A stretch of DNA of 24,459 nucleotides from a virus, in IMG/VR virus record IMGVR_UViG_3300009124_000101, positions 1-24,459 of that record; one strand, given 5' to 3'. The notes beneath the pieces were generated by a model. The model did no database searches and was not told where the DNA came from. It worked only from the letters and a program-made list of their open reading frames with translations. A program made the translations under genes and the position numbers. Positions 16,943-22,183 of the stretch are shown here, piece after piece; positions within the stretch are counted from its first letter, which is position 1; each line of letters begins with the position of its first letter.

Positions 16943-18394
16943 CTACTGTACCTCTGCCGACTGATTCTGCGACTCAGCTGATGTAGGCAGGATTTCACCC
17001 TGTACCAACATGTCGCGGAACTCTTCGCGATCAATAATGCTGTCTTGAAACAGTTGAGCCATTGCCGTAATGTCTTGACCGATAAGACGCTGAAGATCGA
17101 AGTCACGGCTGATCTTCACTTCAGGTGGCTCAATACCTAGATAATTAGCAGCCAGGTTGTAAGACTTTTGCAAACCTGACTCCAAGTCCATTGAGACCAT
17201 CGACAACATTGAATTTGTGTCGATACGGTCCAGGCGTCGTGCGTCAGCCGATTCAGCTACGAATTTTTGTTGGCTAAGCGTGCTGATGCCCAACGTCGCC
17301 ATTTGTTGCTGTAATTCTTGGATCTCCGCAGATTGCGCTTCAAAAGCACTAGCGGCAGGCTCCACGTAATAGACCTTGTTTCCCGGCTGCGTCGCCATCG
17401 CATAGTTCACACTAATCGCCATATCCTTAGTCTGATCATCCCAACCCTCAAGCACCAACATCGGTTGTGATGCGATATGCAGGCTATGAATTAAGTCGGC
17501 TTGGCGCTGGAAGTGAGCAAGATTTAGATGAGCAATGTCCAGCAATGGTGGACGACTTGTCATCGTGTCCGTCTTGTTCGCGTATATGGTGACCAGCGGG
17601 ACTTGATCAAGTGAATACGGCCCAGATTCAATAAGCTCAAACTCCGACGTAGCGTCTGATTGGTCAAACGAAGAGGGATATGGGAAGTTCCCTTGCATCG
17701 CTTTCTTTTGCTCTTCTTGCCGATAGACGCGATAACGACCCGGCTCAATGACACGAATCTGGTCATAGACCTTTTCTCCAAACTCACCGTCAGCTACAAC
17801 AGCTTTTTCGCCAATTCGCACTTGCGTCAGGTTGCCGTAATTCGATTCACGATCCAAACGCCAGCCATACACTTTGGTTGGATCAACCTCAATCCAATAT
17901 GGACGACGGTTTAGTGCGCGTTCTTCTGCAAGGCTTCGGGCTTCTGTTGGAGCGGGAAAGTCAACCAACGTATGGCAATGGCCATAGGTCAACGCACAGA
18001 TCACCAAGCGACGTGCATATTCGTCTAGATCTGAACCGCAGCCGTCAACGTCTTTGTTGAAAACATCTGTCCAATATGGATCGCCAACAATATTGATTGG
18101 TTTACGCAGAATCAAGCCTGCTGCCGCTCGAATCAAACGTTGGGTGTAAGGCGTGAAGACAGCACGATTTACACGCGCTAGATACGCGGAATAGTCTTCG
18201 CGAGGCTCTAATGGAAGGAATGCTTCGCTGTTGTCACGTAAATACTCAGTACCGGACACCACGGCTTTCATGATTTCCCAGCCCTTCATTTGATCGATCA
18301 CCGCTCGGGTGCGAACAAATGGACTGTCAACTGATCCTAAATAGGAAGAGCTAACTAGATGGGTTCTGACTGAGCCGGGAACGGAGTAGGTCAT
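16943..18394 (-). CDS. Portal protein (DUF4055 type)
   Basis: This 483-residue protein forms the dodecameric DNA entry ring. Features in order include WEIMKAVVSGTEYLRDNSEA and FLPLEPREDYSAYLARVNRA near the N-terminus, FTPYTQRLIRAAAGLILRKP, an acidic stretch GCGSDLDEYARRLVICALTY, RRPYWIEVDPTKVYGWRLD, and a helical region with SLHIASQPMLVLEGWDDQT. The combination RAVFTPYTQRLI, GHCHTLVDFP and ADLIHSLHIASQP matches the DUF4055 portal family as I know it from siphoviruses and cyanophages. The C-terminus is acidic and Gln-rich, as in many portals. The start is ATG 18394. It lies between the micro-protein cluster and the scaffold in the standard head order. Confidence 0.9.
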   Translation of the reverse strand: MTYSVPGSVRTHLVSSSYLGSVDSPFVRTRAVIDQMKGWEIMKAVVSGTEYLRDNSEAFLPLEPREDYSAYLARVNRAVFTPYTQRLIRAAAGLILRKPINIVGDPYWTDVFNKDVDGCGSDLDEYARRLVICALTYGHCHTLVDFPAPTEARSLAEERALNRRPYWIEVDPTKVYGWRLDRESNYGNLTQVRIGEKAVVADGEFGEKVYDQIRVIEPGRYRVYRQEEQKKAMQGNFPYPSSFDQSDATSEFELIESGPYSLDQVPLVTIYANKTDTMTSRPPLLDIAHLNLAHFQRQADLIHSLHIASQPMLVLEGWDDQTKDMAISVNYAMATQPGNKVYYVEPAASAFEAQSAEIQELQQQMATLGISTLSQQKFVAESADARRLDRIDTNSMLSMVSMDLESGLQKSYNLAANYLGIEPPEVKISRDFDLQRLIGQDITAMAQLFQDSIIDREEFRDMLVQGEILPTSAESQNQSAEVQ

Positions 18395-18414: not shown

Positions 18415-18675
18415 TTAGCAACCCCAACGACGACGAGCTGCTTTACCCCGTTCACCAGTCCAACTACGACTTCGGGCGCAGAAAGAACGCTTACGGGCAG
18501 CTTCTTCCTTTGTTTTTGGCTTACCTGTGACTGGTGCCTTCAACTTAGAACCGGTTTCCCGGTTGTATTTGGCACGGCCTTTAGCAGTTAAGCCTGCACC
18601 TTTACTAGCAGGCAGTTTTTCGCCACGCCCAACACTAAGGTTGGGGCCACGTTTACGCTTTTTGCGCTCTGCCAT
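18415..18675 (-). CDS. Small basic phage protein with GLTAKGRAKYNRETG motif
   Basis: This 86-residue protein is Lys/Arg-rich throughout. It opens MAERKKRKRGPNLSVGRG and contains GAGLTAKGRAKYNRETGSKL, a motif I recall from a short phage family (possibly DUF6321; name not verified). Then comes KRSFCARSRSWTG, and the last residues are RRRWGC. The family's SFCARM...RINKSLRKWNC ending seems kept in altered form, so both Cys residues are in expected places. The net charge suggests nucleic-acid binding or packing within the head, but this is inference. The neighbours are the tube-like gene and the portal. Function is unknown. Confidence 0.78.
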   Translation of the reverse strand: MAERKKRKRGPNLSVGRGEKLPASKGAGLTAKGRAKYNRETGSKLKAPVTGKPKTKEEAARKRSFCARSRSWTGERGKAARRRWGC

Positions 18676-18686
18676 TGTCCTAACCC

Positions 18687-19109
18687 TTATGCAAGGTTGG
18701 AAGTAATGGCACCGCTGGTGATGAAGTTGCAGGTGACAACTACGAGTTCACCAACTGTGGATGCAATATCCATACTGGTGATGATTCCGGCAAAACTGAC
18801 TGAATCAGTACCGCTGGTAGTGCCAGTGGTGAACAGCTCGAACGTAGCGTCTGCAGGGTCTGCAGCCGTAATTGCGTCTTCAATAAATGCTGCTTGACCT
18901 GTTGCGTCTGGGTCGTACACCAGTTCAACAGTGCCGGAGCCACTAACTAGGCTGCCAATAAATGCACGAGAAGTGTCACCCTGATCGGTAACGTCTAACG
19001 TGTCTTTGGTGATGCTTAGTGTCCAGCTGCGGGTTCCAACGACGGTGGCGTTGGTAGATCCAGCAGCGTCAAACTGAACAGCACCTTGTTCACCACGAAG
19101 GATGGCCAT
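18687..19109 (-). CDS. Probable major tail tube protein
   Basis: This 140-residue protein has the beta-rich, Thr/Ser/Gly/Ala-rich composition of tube proteins. Features in order are MAILRGEQGAVQF, a strand with TRSWTLSITKDTLDVTDQG, SGSGTVELVYDPDATGQ, then DATFELFTTGTTSGTDSVSF and the end segment IITSMDIASTVGELVVV followed by CNFITSG. Tube proteins carry this kind of W-x-L-x(I/V)-x-KDTLDVTD strand and a late T-x-GE strand pair. The usual slot for it, between terminator and chaperone, is empty, and no other gene there has this composition, so this is the best candidate for the major tube. Its position before the portal is unusual. Capsid decoration by the same fold is an alternative. Confidence 0.72.
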   Translation of the reverse strand: MAILRGEQGAVQFDAAGSTNATVVGTRSWTLSITKDTLDVTDQGDTSRAFIGSLVSGSGTVELVYDPDATGQAAFIEDAITAADPADATFELFTTGTTSGTDSVSFAGIITSMDIASTVGELVVVTCNFITSGAITSNLA

Positions 19110-19149
19110 GGCTGGGCGTAAAAGGTCTATAACGTAATTCTACTCTGTC

Positions 19150-19500
19150 TTAACCGTGGTAAGCAACGACGACATGTGGTGTAAAGGAAACCGTGCCAGA
19201 CGCAATGGACGCAATCCGCATCCGGATTAACGTGGCAGCTTTACCGGTATAAAAATAAACGTACTGTCCAGCCTCATTGATGGTTTTACTAACATCAACC
19301 GTAAACCAGTTGCCGTTGCCGTTAAAGTTTGCTTCTAATGCAAGTTGAAAGTTGCCAGAACTGGTAACATTCGCAGCGAAAGAGTATTCACTCGAATGTG
19401 CATGGACTTGAAACCAGTCATCAACTGAAGTCATAACGTTGCCGGTGTGCTCGACCGTGTTTGTAAAACGGTCAATTTCGCTGAGGCCAACATCAGCCAT
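19150..19500 (-). CDS. Beta-rich structural protein, function unknown
   Basis: This 116-residue protein has alternating hydrophobic strands (YSFAANVTSSGNFQLALEAN, then WFTVDVSKTI, YVYFYTG, TLIRMRIASI, VSFTPHVVVAYHG). This is a jelly-roll or Ig-like composition without Cys. No enzyme motif or signal peptide is present. Its ATG shares one base with the stop of the upstream basic gene (TAATG), and 40 bases separate it from the tube-like gene. A capsid decoration protein or small fibre head would fit. The family was not recognised. Confidence 0.68.
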   Translation of the reverse strand: MADVGLSEIDRFTNTVEHTGNVMTSVDDWFQVHAHSSEYSFAANVTSSGNFQLALEANFNGNGNWFTVDVSKTINEAGQYVYFYTGKAATLIRMRIASIASGTVSFTPHVVVAYHG

Positions 19501-19796
19501 TAGCTTTTACCTTTGGGTTTACGGCGTTTATGCTGATAGCTTATCTTCTTTGAACCGGTTTTTTCACGCTTAAACCGAGCTTTTTCTGCGGCTGTCATCT
19601 CTCCTGTTGTTTTAGGCGTCTTAGATGACACGCGCTTTGATGGTCGGCACGCTGGATATGCTCTGTCTTCCTCTTTGGAGCGGCCACAAGGCTTTCCGGT
19701 CTTTACATCGACCCATTTCTCGTCAAACCAACGACTGAGCCCACCCTTAGCCTTACTGGCCTTACTTGGTTTTTTTGGCTTTTTTCGTTCCGCCAT
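19500..19796 (-). CDS. Small basic protein with WFDEKWVDVKTGKPCGRS motif
   Basis: The product is 98 residues from ATG 19796; a GTG one codon upstream is less likely. It is strongly basic. The core GGLSRWFDEKWVDVKTGKP, continuing CGRSKEEDRAYPACRP, then SKRVSSKTPKTTGEMTAAEK, is a highly conserved pattern I recall from phages and giant viruses (possibly DUF5872; name not verified). Two Cys residues (CGRS and ACRP) are spaced for metal binding or a disulphide. The Lys-rich ends suggest nucleic-acid contact. It overlaps the upstream 62-residue gene by 35 bases and the next gene by one base. Function is unknown; a virion DNA-associated role is one possibility. Confidence 0.75.
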   Translation of the reverse strand: MAERKKPKKPSKASKAKGGLSRWFDEKWVDVKTGKPCGRSKEEDRAYPACRPSKRVSSKTPKTTGEMTAAEKARFKREKTGSKKISYQHKRRKPKGKS

Positions 19797-19950
19797 CACT
19801 CACTTTTTGATAGGTGCCGCCACGCTTCTTATATTCCCGCACCAGCCAAGCATTGGCATAGGCACTGGGATATACAGCGAATTTACGCTTGGCAGCCGCT
19901 TTCACACGGCTATAAAGCGCCTTATTTGTGGGCTCATTTCTAGTCGCCAC
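19762..19950 (-). CDS. Small basic protein with YPSAYANAWLVREYKKRGG motif
   Basis: A 62-residue product is read from GTG 19950; no nearby ATG is in frame. It consists of a helical segment (NKALYSRVKAAAKRKFAVY) and the motif YPSAYANAWLVREYKKRGG, followed by a Lys-rich tail. Variants of K-x-F-x-(V/S)-YPSAYAN-x-W-(L/I)-V-x-EYKKRGG occur in many phage and algal-virus proteins as I recall; function is not known to me. It overlaps the upstream 35-codon gene by 11 bases and the downstream basic gene by 35 bases. The tight packing suggests all are made from one message. The combination of a helical core and poly-Lys tail suits a nucleic-acid-binding peptide, by inference. Confidence 0.72.
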   Translation of the reverse strand: MATRNEPTNKALYSRVKAAAKRKFAVYPSAYANAWLVREYKKRGGTYQKVSDGGTKKAKKTK

Positions 19951-20047
19951 AGGTGCAACGCATTTTTTTAGAGCCCTTCTTCATCCCCTTTTTCTTCTTG
20001 GGGGGACGGCCTTTCTGAGTGCCGTATGTTCCTGGACCCTTGGGCAT
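19940..20047 (-). CDS. 35-residue Lys-rich, Cys-containing protein
   Basis: ATG 20047 opens a 35-codon frame: MPKGPGTYGTQKGRPPKKKK, then GMKKGSKKMRCTCGD. Starts of the type MP-x-G-x-GTYG-x-KxGRPPKKKK recur in small proteins of marine phages as I recall. Lys makes up about a third of the residues and the end carries a C-x-C pair. It lies between the 32-residue gene upstream and the 62-residue gene it overlaps by 11 bases. Too short for homology detection by eye; the pattern and strict packing support a real gene. Confidence 0.6.
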   Translation of the reverse strand: MPKGPGTYGTQKGRPPKKKKGMKKGSKKMRCTCGD

Positions 20048-20082
20048 GACAGATGGACGATAGGGTCGCTCCAGTCTAACGC

Positions 20083-20181
20083 TTACTTTTTCTTCTTACT
20101 AGCAGTCTTCTTCTTGCTCTTACGAACAGCCTTCATATAGCCCTCGCATCGCTTCATCCCGGCGCTTTTCTTGTCAGCCAT
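20083..20181 (-). CDS. 32-residue Lys-rich protein
   Basis: ATG 20181 opens MADKKSAGMKRCEGYMKAVR, followed by KSKKKTASKKKK and a TAA. Its single Cys lies in MKRCEGYMK, an arrangement I recall from small basic proteins of marine phages. It is the first minus-strand gene after the gap that holds the plus-strand zinc-ribbon gene. The frame is short, but it resembles its neighbours in composition and lies in line with them. No function is known to me. Confidence 0.5.
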   Translation of the reverse strand: MADKKSAGMKRCEGYMKAVRKSKKKTASKKKK

Positions 20182-20238: not shown

Positions 20239-20433
20239 TTGAAGTGTCCAAAGTGCGGATCGTTCAGAGTGCGTGTCGTCACAACAAAAACGACTGTTGA
20301 AGGGCCTTACGAGAAAGTGCGTCGTCGGGTTTGCACTAGCTGCGATCACAGGTGGTACACCGCTCAGGAGCCAGAAGTAAACATTGGCCCCTACCTGCAT
20401 TGGGTTGGTGATCAAGTCAGAGTGCCAACTTGA
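20239..20433 (+). CDS. Small zinc-ribbon protein, NrdR-like N-terminal domain
   Basis: The start is TTG 20239, the only usable start between an upstream TAG (20206) and the first Cys pair. The 64-residue product carries CPKCG at residues 3-7 and CTSC at 32-35, with EGPYEKVRRRVCTSCDHRW between and after. This Cx2C-x25-Cx2C ribbon with an R-R-R-x-C-x2-C-x2-RW/F-x-T end resembles the zinc ribbon of NrdR and Ogr/Delta-like regulators. The ATP-cone domain of NrdR is absent. It probably binds DNA or RNA. It runs against the late operon in the gap between TerL and the small basic genes, ending 15 bases before the TerL stop. This placement and the palindrome upstream suggest an independently expressed accessory (moron-like) gene. 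Confidence 0.72.
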   Translation: MKCPKCGSFRVRVVTTKTTVEGPYEKVRRRVCTSCDHRWYTAQEPEVNIGPYLHWVGDQVRVPT

Positions 20434-20448
20434 TGCCAAAACACCTTC

Positions 20449-21702
20449 TCAATACAGCCGATAAGACGTTTTCCCCATCGTCTCCGGCTTTGCTAAATTA
20501 AACTGTTGTAAAACTAAATAACCGAATGCGTCAAAGGCGTGGTCCACCCCCAAATTCTTATTTGGGAGCCCTGTTCCAGGTGCATACGTCAATGTTCGCA
20601 ATGACTTGATTAAGTTTTTGCACCTCGGATGCACTACCGTCCTTCGCGCTCCAGATGCATCCATTAATGCGGTGTTGACCGCTGTGATCTTGTCGCGGAT
20701 TTTCCATGCTGCCCTTGGTGATTGGACCGTAAATCCACTGCGTCGCAAAATTGCATGGTCTGTTACGCCTACTCCGCTTGTTTTTCGTGCTCCGCCCGTT
20801 GGGTCTGGACACGCAATAATCCTTCGATCCACACCGTATCTACGTGTAACTTCTTCCGCAAAATCCCAGGTTGTTGCACCGCCAGTCAACATAATCTCGT
20901 CGAACACATATAACGTCTCCCCATCCTTGACCGCGCAAATGCCGCTCATTGGGTCAACGTTAAAATCAACCCCAAGCAACAATGGCTGGATACTGATGTC
21001 TCGCGCTTCTTGAGAGATGTTCTCATCACTAAAGCTGACGGCAACAAGGCCCGTAAGATTCTCGAAGCTCGCCTCAAATTCTTGACGGAATGTTCTCGTG
21101 TCAAGTTGGGCGCGGGCTGCCTCAACCTCATGCTTACTAACATTCCCTCCATCAATCGTCGTATAACTCCAGCGTTCCCATAATCCTGTTTCGTCCTCTG
21201 GCACATAACACCACAAGTCATAAAACCAACTAGCGGTGCCGTCTGGCGTTGAAATAAATAATGCCCACCCCTCCTTATCCGCTAACGCAGGTCGAATCAC
21301 CTCAAACCATACGTCCGAACTCATAAAGGCAGCCTCGTCCAATACCACCCCAGATAAACTGCGGCCCCTCAAGGCCATTGCGTTCTCTGTTCCCTTTAAT
21401 TCGATCGTTGATCCATTGATCAACTCAAGCCGTAAGTCGGTTTCGTTCTTACTCTTGATCCAAACTTGTGGCACAAGCTTCTTTAAGGCTCGCCATGCAA
21501 TATCCTTTGCCATCCGATACGTCGGGGCACAATAAAAAAATGTCTCCCCAGGTCGATTGATCGCTCCACGTACCAATTCAACGCAAGATAAGTAGGACTT
21601 GCCGAAGCGACGGCCTGCCACTAAAACTCTGAAGCGTTTTTCGCACGAAAATACTTGGCCTTGAGCCCATCGAAGCTCAATTGGTGCGGTTTTTTGACTC
21701 AT
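20449..21702 (-). CDS. terL: Terminase large subunit (TerL)
   Basis: This is the packaging motor ATPase and nuclease. I prefer ATG 21702 (MSQKTAPIELRWAQGQVF, 417 residues). A longer frame begins at 21801, but its extra 33 residues look non-conserved and cover the divergent promoter region. The ATPase part has a Walker A variant GRRFGKS at about residues 30-36, Walker B VVLDEA at 119-124 and the coupling motif STPDG at 151-155. The RNase H-like nuclease part has GVDFNVDP near 245-252, CPDPTG near 298-303 and GVDHAFDAFGYL near 386-397, which supply the acidic residues. The size and motifs are normal for a siphovirus TerL, so it looks complete. TerS is divergent across a 97-bp gap instead of upstream on the same strand. 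Confidence 0.95.
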   Translation of the reverse strand: MSQKTAPIELRWAQGQVFSCEKRFRVLVAGRRFGKSYLSCVELVRGAINRPGETFFYCAPTYRMAKDIAWRALKKLVPQVWIKSKNETDLRLELINGSTIELKGTENAMALRGRSLSGVVLDEAAFMSSDVWFEVIRPALADKEGWALFISTPDGTASWFYDLWCYVPEDETGLWERWSYTTIDGGNVSKHEVEAARAQLDTRTFRQEFEASFENLTGLVAVSFSDENISQEARDISIQPLLLGVDFNVDPMSGICAVKDGETLYVFDEIMLTGGATTWDFAEEVTRRYGVDRRIIACPDPTGGARKTSGVGVTDHAILRRSGFTVQSPRAAWKIRDKITAVNTALMDASGARRTVVHPRCKNLIKSLRTLTYAPGTGLPNKNLGVDHAFDAFGYLVLQQFNLAKPETMGKTSYRLY

Positions 21703-21768
21703 AAATGCCACATTACACAGATTCTTGACCCCTGCCCCCCTTAATCGAAGGCTAGAAGCCTTTCTACC

Positions 21769-21797
21769 AGTTAAGATCTTGGAAAAGGTCGTATCAA
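21769..21797 (-). promoter_or_regulatory. Candidate promoter for the TerL / late operon
   Basis: On the minus strand TTGATA (21797-21792) and TTAACT (21774-21769) are separated by 17 bases. The -35 box matches the sigma-70 consensus in five of six bases, the -10 box in three. Transcription would begin near 21762, giving about 60 bases of leader before ATG 21702. A hairpin AAGGCT-aga-AGCCTT (21748-21762) falls at the predicted start. Prediction by eye only. Confidence 0.35.
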
Positions 21798-21799
21798 GC

Positions 21800-22183
21800 A
21801 TGACTCAAGACGAACGCCGCTCCACAAATGCAAAAGAAGATCGTGTGCGGCGTTTATACCGTCGGCAACTTGAGGGTTTGTCGGCTAGGGCGCTTGTTTA
21901 TGAGCATGTTGAGCGGGAACAGGTCAGCATCAATACCGCTTGGCGTGATTGGGCAGAAGTAAAGCTTCTCGTTGATGAAGACTGGAAGTCTGACCGCGAA
22001 AATATGTTGGCGCGGCTTCAGCACATGCGTACCAAACTGTTTAATCAGGCGATTAAGAAGGGGCAGTTGCAGACTGCAAGTCAGGTGCTGGATTCCATTG
22101 GACGTGTTATTGGGGAGTCCACTGAAACTGTCAATATTCAAGCGCCTGATCTGACTATCAAAATTCAGGGCAAGGACGACTGA
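21800..22183 (+). CDS. terS: Terminase small subunit (TerS)
   Basis: The likely start is ATG 21800 (MTQDERRSTNAKEDRVRRLY), giving 127 residues; an in-frame TTG at 21725 would add 25 residues that look non-coding. AAGG lies about ten bases before the ATG. Residues 15-60 form a predicted helix-turn-helix (RVRRLYRRQLEGLSARALVY, then EHVEREQVSINTAWRDW), as in TerS DNA-recognition domains. A helical oligomerisation region follows (MLARLQHMRTKLFNQAIKKG), and the C-terminus ends in a strand with DLTIKIQGKDD, similar to the beta-barrel end of other small subunits. Such proteins bind the pac or cos site and stimulate TerL. The gene is on the opposite strand to TerL and is followed by a strong terminator, so it seems to be its own unit. 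Confidence 0.78.
   Translation: MTQDERRSTNAKEDRVRRLYRRQLEGLSARALVYEHVEREQVSINTAWRDWAEVKLLVDEDWKSDRENMLARLQHMRTKLFNQAIKKGQLQTASQVLDSIGRVIGESTETVNIQAPDLTIKIQGKDD

Follow-up and report, generated by a model that had tools for sequence, protein, structure and literature searches.

Small basic genes in exchangeable slots between terminase and portal: a candidate internal head protein cassette

Known internal head proteins and the basic genes of the window

The internal proteins IPI, IPII and IPIII of phage T4 are small basic head proteins that accompany the DNA and are polymorphic among related phages. T4 internal proteins are reported to bind DNA at low salt (PMC9026906), and internal protein lysines to touch DNA phosphate inside the head (PMC3012670). 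Basic virus-coded proteins are also described with the packaged DNA of Chlorella virus PBCV-1 (PMC3281028). Here, we analyzed a 24,459-base virus record (IMGVR_UViG_3300009124_000101; this whole stretch is called the window below), in which five genes for basic proteins of 32, 35, 62, 98 and 86 amino acids (p32, p35, p62, p98 and p86) lie between the genes for the large terminase subunit (TerL) and the portal protein. We favor, with modest confidence, the reading that these five genes form a cassette of internal head proteins carried along with the DNA.

Like the T4 internal proteins, the five products are small and basic (27–44% lysine plus arginine, isoelectric point (pI) 10.4–11.7; Table 1). 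Unlike them, they lack a T4-type targeting peptide and are encoded by several genes in the TerL–portal interval of a siphovirus-like genome. PBCV-1 differs in being a membrane-containing giant virus, and the Pfam family of its basic adaptor was unmatched by any of the five at E ≤ 1. T4-GC119 of the T4-like phage S-BM3 (SBM3_00185) and gp137 and gp160 of phage S-CREM2 resemble the window in carrying a DUF6321 part and/or a p62 part, although there the parts sit in one or two large proteins and not in separate small genes; in the passages on it in Sullivan et al. (2010; PMC3037559), T4-GC119 is named only as a hypothetical gene that belongs to a mobile cassette. The Pfam families DUF5872 and DUF6321 were already known as names of uncharacterized families without a function. 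In the literature searched, DUF5872 was found only in the gene table of an algal virus (PMC12085832), DUF6321 was found nowhere, and nothing was found on this gene set, in line with the statement of an earlier note on this DNA that no function had been described. The additions made here are the exchangeable slots, the fused protein of S-BM3, the connection to a virion protein list already in print and the likeness to a targeting peptide; in the literature searched, we found no paper that describes any of them.

The observation on which the earlier note was built was partly confirmed. The five open reading frames (ORFs) that it listed all exist with the lengths and coordinates that it gave, most of their products contain one or two cysteines, and their lysine richness is unusual for the window, in which lysine made up at least 15% of the product in 8 of 216 ORFs of 30–110 amino acids, with all five basic ORFs among these 8. 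The overlaps were also as claimed (p35/p62, 11 bases; p62/p98, 35–38 bases; p98/p116, 1 base). However, the five genes do not form the single packed run that the note described, because the interval contains seven ORFs on the minus strand (p32, p35, p62, p98, p116, p140 and p86), and the acidic p116 and p140 split p98 from p86. Moreover, a motif quoted as GGL-x-KGRAKYNRETG reads GAGLTAKGRAKYNRETG in the window, and the GGL belongs to p98.

We computed median ratios of nonsynonymous to synonymous substitution (dN/dS) among distinct ORFs from related contigs (each nearly complete and at least 70% identical, with no more than 60 for any gene), using pairs with a synonymous difference (pS) of 0.02–0.6 and ignoring kinship between the sequences. 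The medians for the five genes ranged from 0.03 to 0.10 (Table 1), which excludes the value near 1 that had been named as a refutation of the earlier interpretation, and p86 was constrained on a par with the portal gene (0.030 versus 0.041). The five ORFs are real genes under purifying selection. Since the same gene order also recurs in relatives, the arrangement is beyond chance. It is scarcely conceivable that these are spurious or decaying ORFs without a protein product: they are short and of low complexity, and p32 and p35 matched no Pfam or PHROG family in profile searches, but this explanation conflicts with the dN/dS medians, with the retained gene order and with the three of five proteins that scored above a Pfam cut-off.

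In the proposed cassette, the proteins would be made together with the packaging and head genes, would enter the head (those of the window without a T4-type targeting peptide), would be held on the packed DNA by their Lys/Arg-rich surfaces and would probably leave with the DNA at infection. The cassette would be modular, with the alternatives in each of two slots exchanged as if equivalent. We infer that the window's own products are present in its own virion, and, judging from their charge and by analogy with T4, the proteins might contact DNA. The interpretation in the earlier note, a set of internal DNA-binding or DNA-condensing peptides expressed with the head genes, is thus partly supported: a location in the head gained support from synteny, the S-BM3 fusion, mass spectrometry of S-CREM2 virions and a targeting-like N-terminus, each described below. 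If the reading holds, DUF5872 and DUF6321 would acquire a testable role, one exchangeable list of parts would link siphovirus-like, T7-like and T4-like marine phages, and the role of small basic proteins amid packed phage DNA, a long-standing question, could be studied in a second system besides T4.

Exchangeable slots, the DUF5872 pair and relatives in other phages

Searches of IMG/VR with the portal protein and p62 yielded 97 TerL–portal intervals, of which the 84 distinct ones were used; these phages are related to each other, so that the counts below are not independent events. Cassette members were present in 80 of the 84 intervals and their order recurred. One position, slot A, was occupied by the pair p62+p98 in 60 intervals and by a peptide designated YANI in 19, never by both, and by neither in 5. 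The other, slot B, which adjoins the portal gene, contained a DUF6321 gene in 64 intervals and a gene for a protein designated SFKARH (phrog_7595) in 16, again never both, with neither in 4. The alternatives are therefore mutually exclusive, and all four pairings occur: p62+p98 with DUF6321 (54), YANI with DUF6321 (10), YANI with SFKARH (9) and p62+p98 with SFKARH (6), in addition to SFKARH alone (1) and neither slot filled (4). Three combinations (17, 8 and 6 distinct intervals) were found among phages whose portals are at least 97% identical, and swapping is therefore recent. The four empty intervals have a TerL–portal gap of 52–99 bp with p62+p98 placed after the portal gene, and in one of them (L119) p32 and p35 were relocated along with the pair.

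No homology was found between p98 and p86 or between p62 and p98. DUF6321 and SFKARH proteins share (K/R)xSFxxR by eye, and with an hhalign probability of 28.7% homology between them is not claimed. As a separate observation, two SFKARH proteins (L156:1832-2116 and L158:3711-3989) matched part of PHROG 220, annotated as a minor head protein and DNA pilot (5.5e-4 and 4.6e-6, respectively).

The occupants of slot A in the window are two parts of a single family, as judged by profile alignment: p62 matched positions 1–50 (38.6 bits) and p98 positions 38–113 (58.4 bits) of the Pfam DUF5872 model (PF19197; curated cut-off, 27.5 bits), so that together they cover the model, and in the window DUF5872 is divided between two overlapping genes. 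Slot B is filled by p86, which scored 63.2 bits against DUF6321 (PF19846; cut-off, 28.5 bits). The division of DUF5872 raises the possibility that a programmed +1 frameshift within the A-rich overlap joins p62 and p98 into a single protein. Consistent with a frameshift, both align to the same model, 90 of 94 distinct pairs have p98 in the +1 frame relative to p62, and overlaps of 1–53 bases are seen in all 93 pairs with a p98 start codon. However, an ATG or GTG before the conserved GGL was retained in those 93 of 94 pairs, followed by alanine or serine in 92, the A runs in the overlap were not common to all groups, and independent, coupled initiation explains the same data. Since p98 keeps its own start, separate coupled translation is likelier, and we regard the frameshift as very improbable. 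Initiation at an upstream GTG would give the p98 of the window 99 amino acids.

The GRP of p35 was retained in 35 of 47 distinct homologs. We take its KGRPPKKKK to resemble an AT-hook, although p35 matched no Pfam family at E ≤ 1 and hence no AT-hook family.

Members of the cassette were also found in phages of other types. The DUF6321 protein of the window had matches in 97 of 50,697 phage records. In the Prochlorococcus autographivirus P-SCSP2, p62-like (phrog_27331, 1.1e-20), p98-like (DUF5872, 5e-14) and DUF6321 (3.9e-24) genes lie between the scaffold and capsid genes, and in the Roseobacter phages CRP-2 and CRP-207 and phage C72C1, matches to SFKARH, p62 and p98 are adjacent and upstream of the portal gene. 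In S-BM3, one 337-amino-acid protein that adjoins the small terminase subunit (TerS) contains DUF6321 at residues 265–335 and a p62-like stretch scoring 75 bits, against 12.1 for the best of 10,000 shuffles; by these matches, a single polypeptide combines DUF6321 with the p62 part. This fusion protein matched 497 phage records, mostly cyanophages. A scan of 84,980 genomes with a p98 pattern identified four loci, three with TerL and the fourth with an SFKARH match. One of the four, a Prochlorococcus single-cell contig, carries TerL, p62, p98, p140, p86, portal and scaffold genes, which gives a hint as to the host of the window phage. Taken together, the families were seen in phages of Synechococcus, Prochlorococcus, Pelagibacter, Roseobacter and Methylophilales.

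The same data bear on the main rival explanation, namely that these are injected counter-defense or host-takeover peptides for which the ride in the head is a means of delivery only, the swaps reflecting an arms race. The slots resemble what is reported of T-even internal proteins, which are diverse and have only the targeting peptide in common (PMC3012670), and T4 Ip1, Ip2 and Ip3 are injected and inhibit distinct GmrSD restriction enzymes (PMC12373910). Swapping at 97% or higher portal identity, with three types represented, favors this explanation. On the other hand, every module is under strong purifying selection, and families that span phages of five host groups, with DUF5872 also in an algal virus, are a poor fit to a host-specific inhibitor. 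Because of this broad host spread and strong constraint, a structural or DNA role is favored, and we consider counter-defense unlikely, while giving it more weight than any other alternative to the internal head protein reading.

We also considered a wider proposal, which we hold only tentatively and which is more doubtful than the internal head protein reading itself: that the basic modules (the DUF5872 parts, DUF6321, SFKARH, YANI and GTYG/GRP) might constitute a shared protamine-like kit that coats or compacts packaged DNA in siphovirus-like, T7-like and T4-like aquatic phages, and in part in algal giant viruses, occurring as separate mini-genes or as fused virion proteins, and with free exchange of slots among phages that are almost identical.

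Two further observations were made on loci of this kind. The P-SCSP2 cassette contains a 41-amino-acid ORF (L159:4740-4865) with the look of a single EF-hand/dockerin-type loop (EF-hand, E = 9.4e-6, just below the cut-off). Three contigs assigned to metagenome-assembled genomes of SAR202, Planctomycetota and Verrucomicrobiales (L169, L170 and L171) carry p62+p98; the first also carries TerL, portal and scaffold genes and the second TerL, and all three are likely viral contigs binned with bacteria.

Virion proteomes and N-termini of relatives

We compared the cassette families with published virion proteomes of relatives. In S-CREM2, gp137 (108049-109521, between TerS and TerL) has a C-terminal DUF6321 (40.8 bits), and gp160 (128342-129235) is DUF5872-like, as judged by the low profile scores given below and by a match to phrog_727 (9.1e-49), a family that also matches the S-BM3 protein. 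In Table 3 of PMC10665884, CsCl-purified S-CREM2 virions yielded four unique peptides of ORF137 (4.1% coverage), seven peptides of ORF160 (13.1%) and eight of ORF136, a basic neighbor (24.1%). A DUF6321 protein was accordingly detected in one of two readable virion proteomes (S-CREM2 but not S-SZBM1), and P-SS2, another phage with a virion proteome, had no DUF6321 match. Thus, on the point that absence from virions would speak against the earlier interpretation, the relatives give one detection and one non-detection.

The N-terminus of the S-SZBM1 DUF6321 protein SSZBM1_192 (MKTFKQYITEA) looks like a T4-type capsid-targeting sequence when set beside that of T4 IPIII (MKTYQEFIAEA), the only part of the two proteins at which likeness was compared. 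The first ten T4 residues are reported to suffice for targeting, residues 4 and 7 being important for targeting and residues 8 and 10 for processing (PMC9026906); at these four positions SSZBM1_192 has F, Y, I and E and IPIII has Y, F, I and E. We scanned start codons for the motif (aromatic residues at 4 and 7, glutamate at 10), which was formulated after the sequences had been seen, in 150 of 177.8 kb of S-SZBM1, 32 of 174.9 kb of S-CREM2 and smaller pieces of S-CRM01, S-BM3 and T4. In S-SZBM1 it occurred at two of 4,265 start codons, both in the TerS–TerL interval (SSZBM1_191 and SSZBM1_192); in the 32 kb of S-CREM2 at one of 840, gp136; in S-CRM01 at one of 94, SCRM01_033; and in S-BM3 at none of the 215 scanned. 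T4 IPIII itself is uncounted because the scanned stretch cuts its gene. Among 80 related loci, a set biased because it was partly found with the seed MKTFKQYI, the motif occurred at 17 of 13,113 starts, all 17 on the DUF6321 strand.

Several points weigh against an internal head protein role. The targeting motif is absent from all five window proteins, whose N-termini read MADKKSAGMK, MPKGPGTYGT, MATRNEPTNK, MAERKKPKKP and MAERKKRKRG, and in the 80 related loci it was present in just 4 of 79 DUF6321 ORFs. The likeness of gp160 to the cassette is weak: it scored 15.4 bits against Pfam DUF5872, under the cut-off, and 16.5 bits against the p62 model (best shuffle, 12.1), and the p98 model did not match it, so that a p98-like stretch is seen there, as in the S-BM3 protein, by eye only. 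The authors of the S-CREM2 study warn that some detected proteins are perhaps carry-over (PMC10665884), and the four peptides of gp137 may stem from its N-terminus outside DUF6321. Of the more distant DUF6321 loci, only 18 of 73 and 37 of 80 had a head or packaging gene alongside when these genes were sought with a limited query set. In the literature searched, no experiment was found on the phage of the window or on any protein of the separate-small-gene layout. Finally, no DNA-binding fold was shown, because the structure models were poor: AlphaFold2 gave mean local confidence scores (pLDDT) of 61.0 for p98 (28-sequence alignment; predicted template modeling score (pTM), 0.32) and 61.3 for p86 (13-sequence alignment; pTM, 0.42).

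The non-detection in S-SZBM1, where SSZBM1_192 is not among the 30 virion proteins in Table 1 of PMC9146016, would also be expected if the cassette encodes proteins that aid assembly or packaging (scaffold partners, or regulators of the terminase or portal), that act while the head is filled and are absent from the finished virion. Gene positions agree with such helpers, being between TerL and portal in the window and elsewhere between portal and scaffold or between scaffold and capsid, and the fused or long forms adjoin TerS (S-BM3) or lie between TerS and TerL (S-CREM2, S-CRM01 and S-SZBM1). However, the S-CREM2 virion list includes gp137 and gp160 and neither the small (106821-107282) nor the large (109660-111345) terminase subunit. 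In addition, the negative result from S-SZBM1 weighs less because lysine-rich proteins yield few tryptic peptides; for example, usable ones number one for p32 (19% coverage), one for p35 (26%), four for p86 (34%) and four for p98 (33%). A helper role therefore seems to us quite unlikely, somewhat more so than counter-defense.

Predicted structures were rejected as a source of mechanism, since models and matches were uninformative. Foldseek against the PDB returned two matches to p86 at E ≤ 10 and none at E ≤ 0.001, and a sequence search of the PDB gave nothing for p98 and one match for p86 (E = 0.9). In BFVD, p86 had weak matches only, mostly to its own family, and p98 had six unnamed matches, three of them at E ≤ 0.001; three of the accessions look like chlorovirus entries. 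An untargeted DNA pattern search found nothing.

Two virion proteins deserve separate mention. Residues 17–70 of S-CREM2 gp160 (L186:4343-5236) matched the N-terminal part of the PHROG 696 major head protein (4.8e-10), perhaps a shared propeptide. In S-SZBM1, SSZBM1_195 (OL473597 125377-125640), a non-basic hypothetical protein of 87 amino acids that adjoins TerS, had the third highest exponentially modified protein abundance index (2.66) of the 30.

Layout of the interval and neighboring genes

The features of the interval are listed in Table 1. We counted optional genes at the 60 of 80 portal loci that had both TerL and portal; p35 was present at 58 of these 60 and p116 at 8.

Table 1. Genes of the TerL–portal interval of the window and its borders (K+R, lysine plus arginine; dN/dS, median with the number of distinct ORFs in parentheses; aa, amino acids)
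Feature	Coordinates	Strand	K+R	Cys	dN/dS	Remarks
Terminase large subunit, upstream border	20449..21801	-				Pfam Terminase_6N, E = 1.5e-15; phrog_2, E = 3.4e-43
p32, 32 aa	20083..20181	-	44%	1	0.10 (12)	Lys-rich
p35, 35 aa	19940..20047	-	34%	2	0.085 (39)	GTYGTQKGRPPKKKK...
p62, 62 aa	19762..19950	-	27%	0	0.096 (60)	GTG start; one half of swap slot A; matches N-terminal part of DUF5872, YPSAYANAWLVREYKKRGG
p98, 98 aa	19500..19796	-	34%	2	0.097 (60)	Other half of slot A; matches C-terminal part of DUF5872, GGLSRWFDEKWVDVKTGKPCGR
p116, 116 aa	19150..19500	-				Optional inserted gene; acidic, pI 5.3; outside the basic set
p140, tail-tube-like	18687..19109	-				Optional here; pI 4.1; phrog_10528 major tail protein, E = 9.3e-22
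p86, DUF6321 protein	18415..18675	-	33%	2	0.030 (58)	Swap slot B, adjoins portal; Pfam PF19846
Portal protein, downstream border	16943..18394	-			0.041 (60)	phrog_145, E = 1.2e-103; Pfam DUF4055, E = 1.6e-28

For the tail-tube-like gene p140 there are two alternative sites, one in the TerL–portal interval and the other some 5.8 kb downstream from where the portal gene starts. Among the 19 loci that were long enough, it was in the interval in 8, a 28–31% identical form was at about +5.8 kb in 8 (L005, L013, L014, L020, L021, L029, L041 and L048), none had both, and three distant ones had neither.

Between TerL and p32, the window carries an NrdR-like zinc-ribbon ORF in the opposite orientation (20239-20433, plus strand; Pfam Zn_ribbon_NrdR, 1.9e-8), and a zinc-ribbon-like ORF with CPKC...CxxC lies on TerL's own strand in another locus (L047, 5221-5475). 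The best-ranked isolate match of the window portal protein was cyanophage S-2L (37.9%), a phage with diaminopurine-containing DNA.

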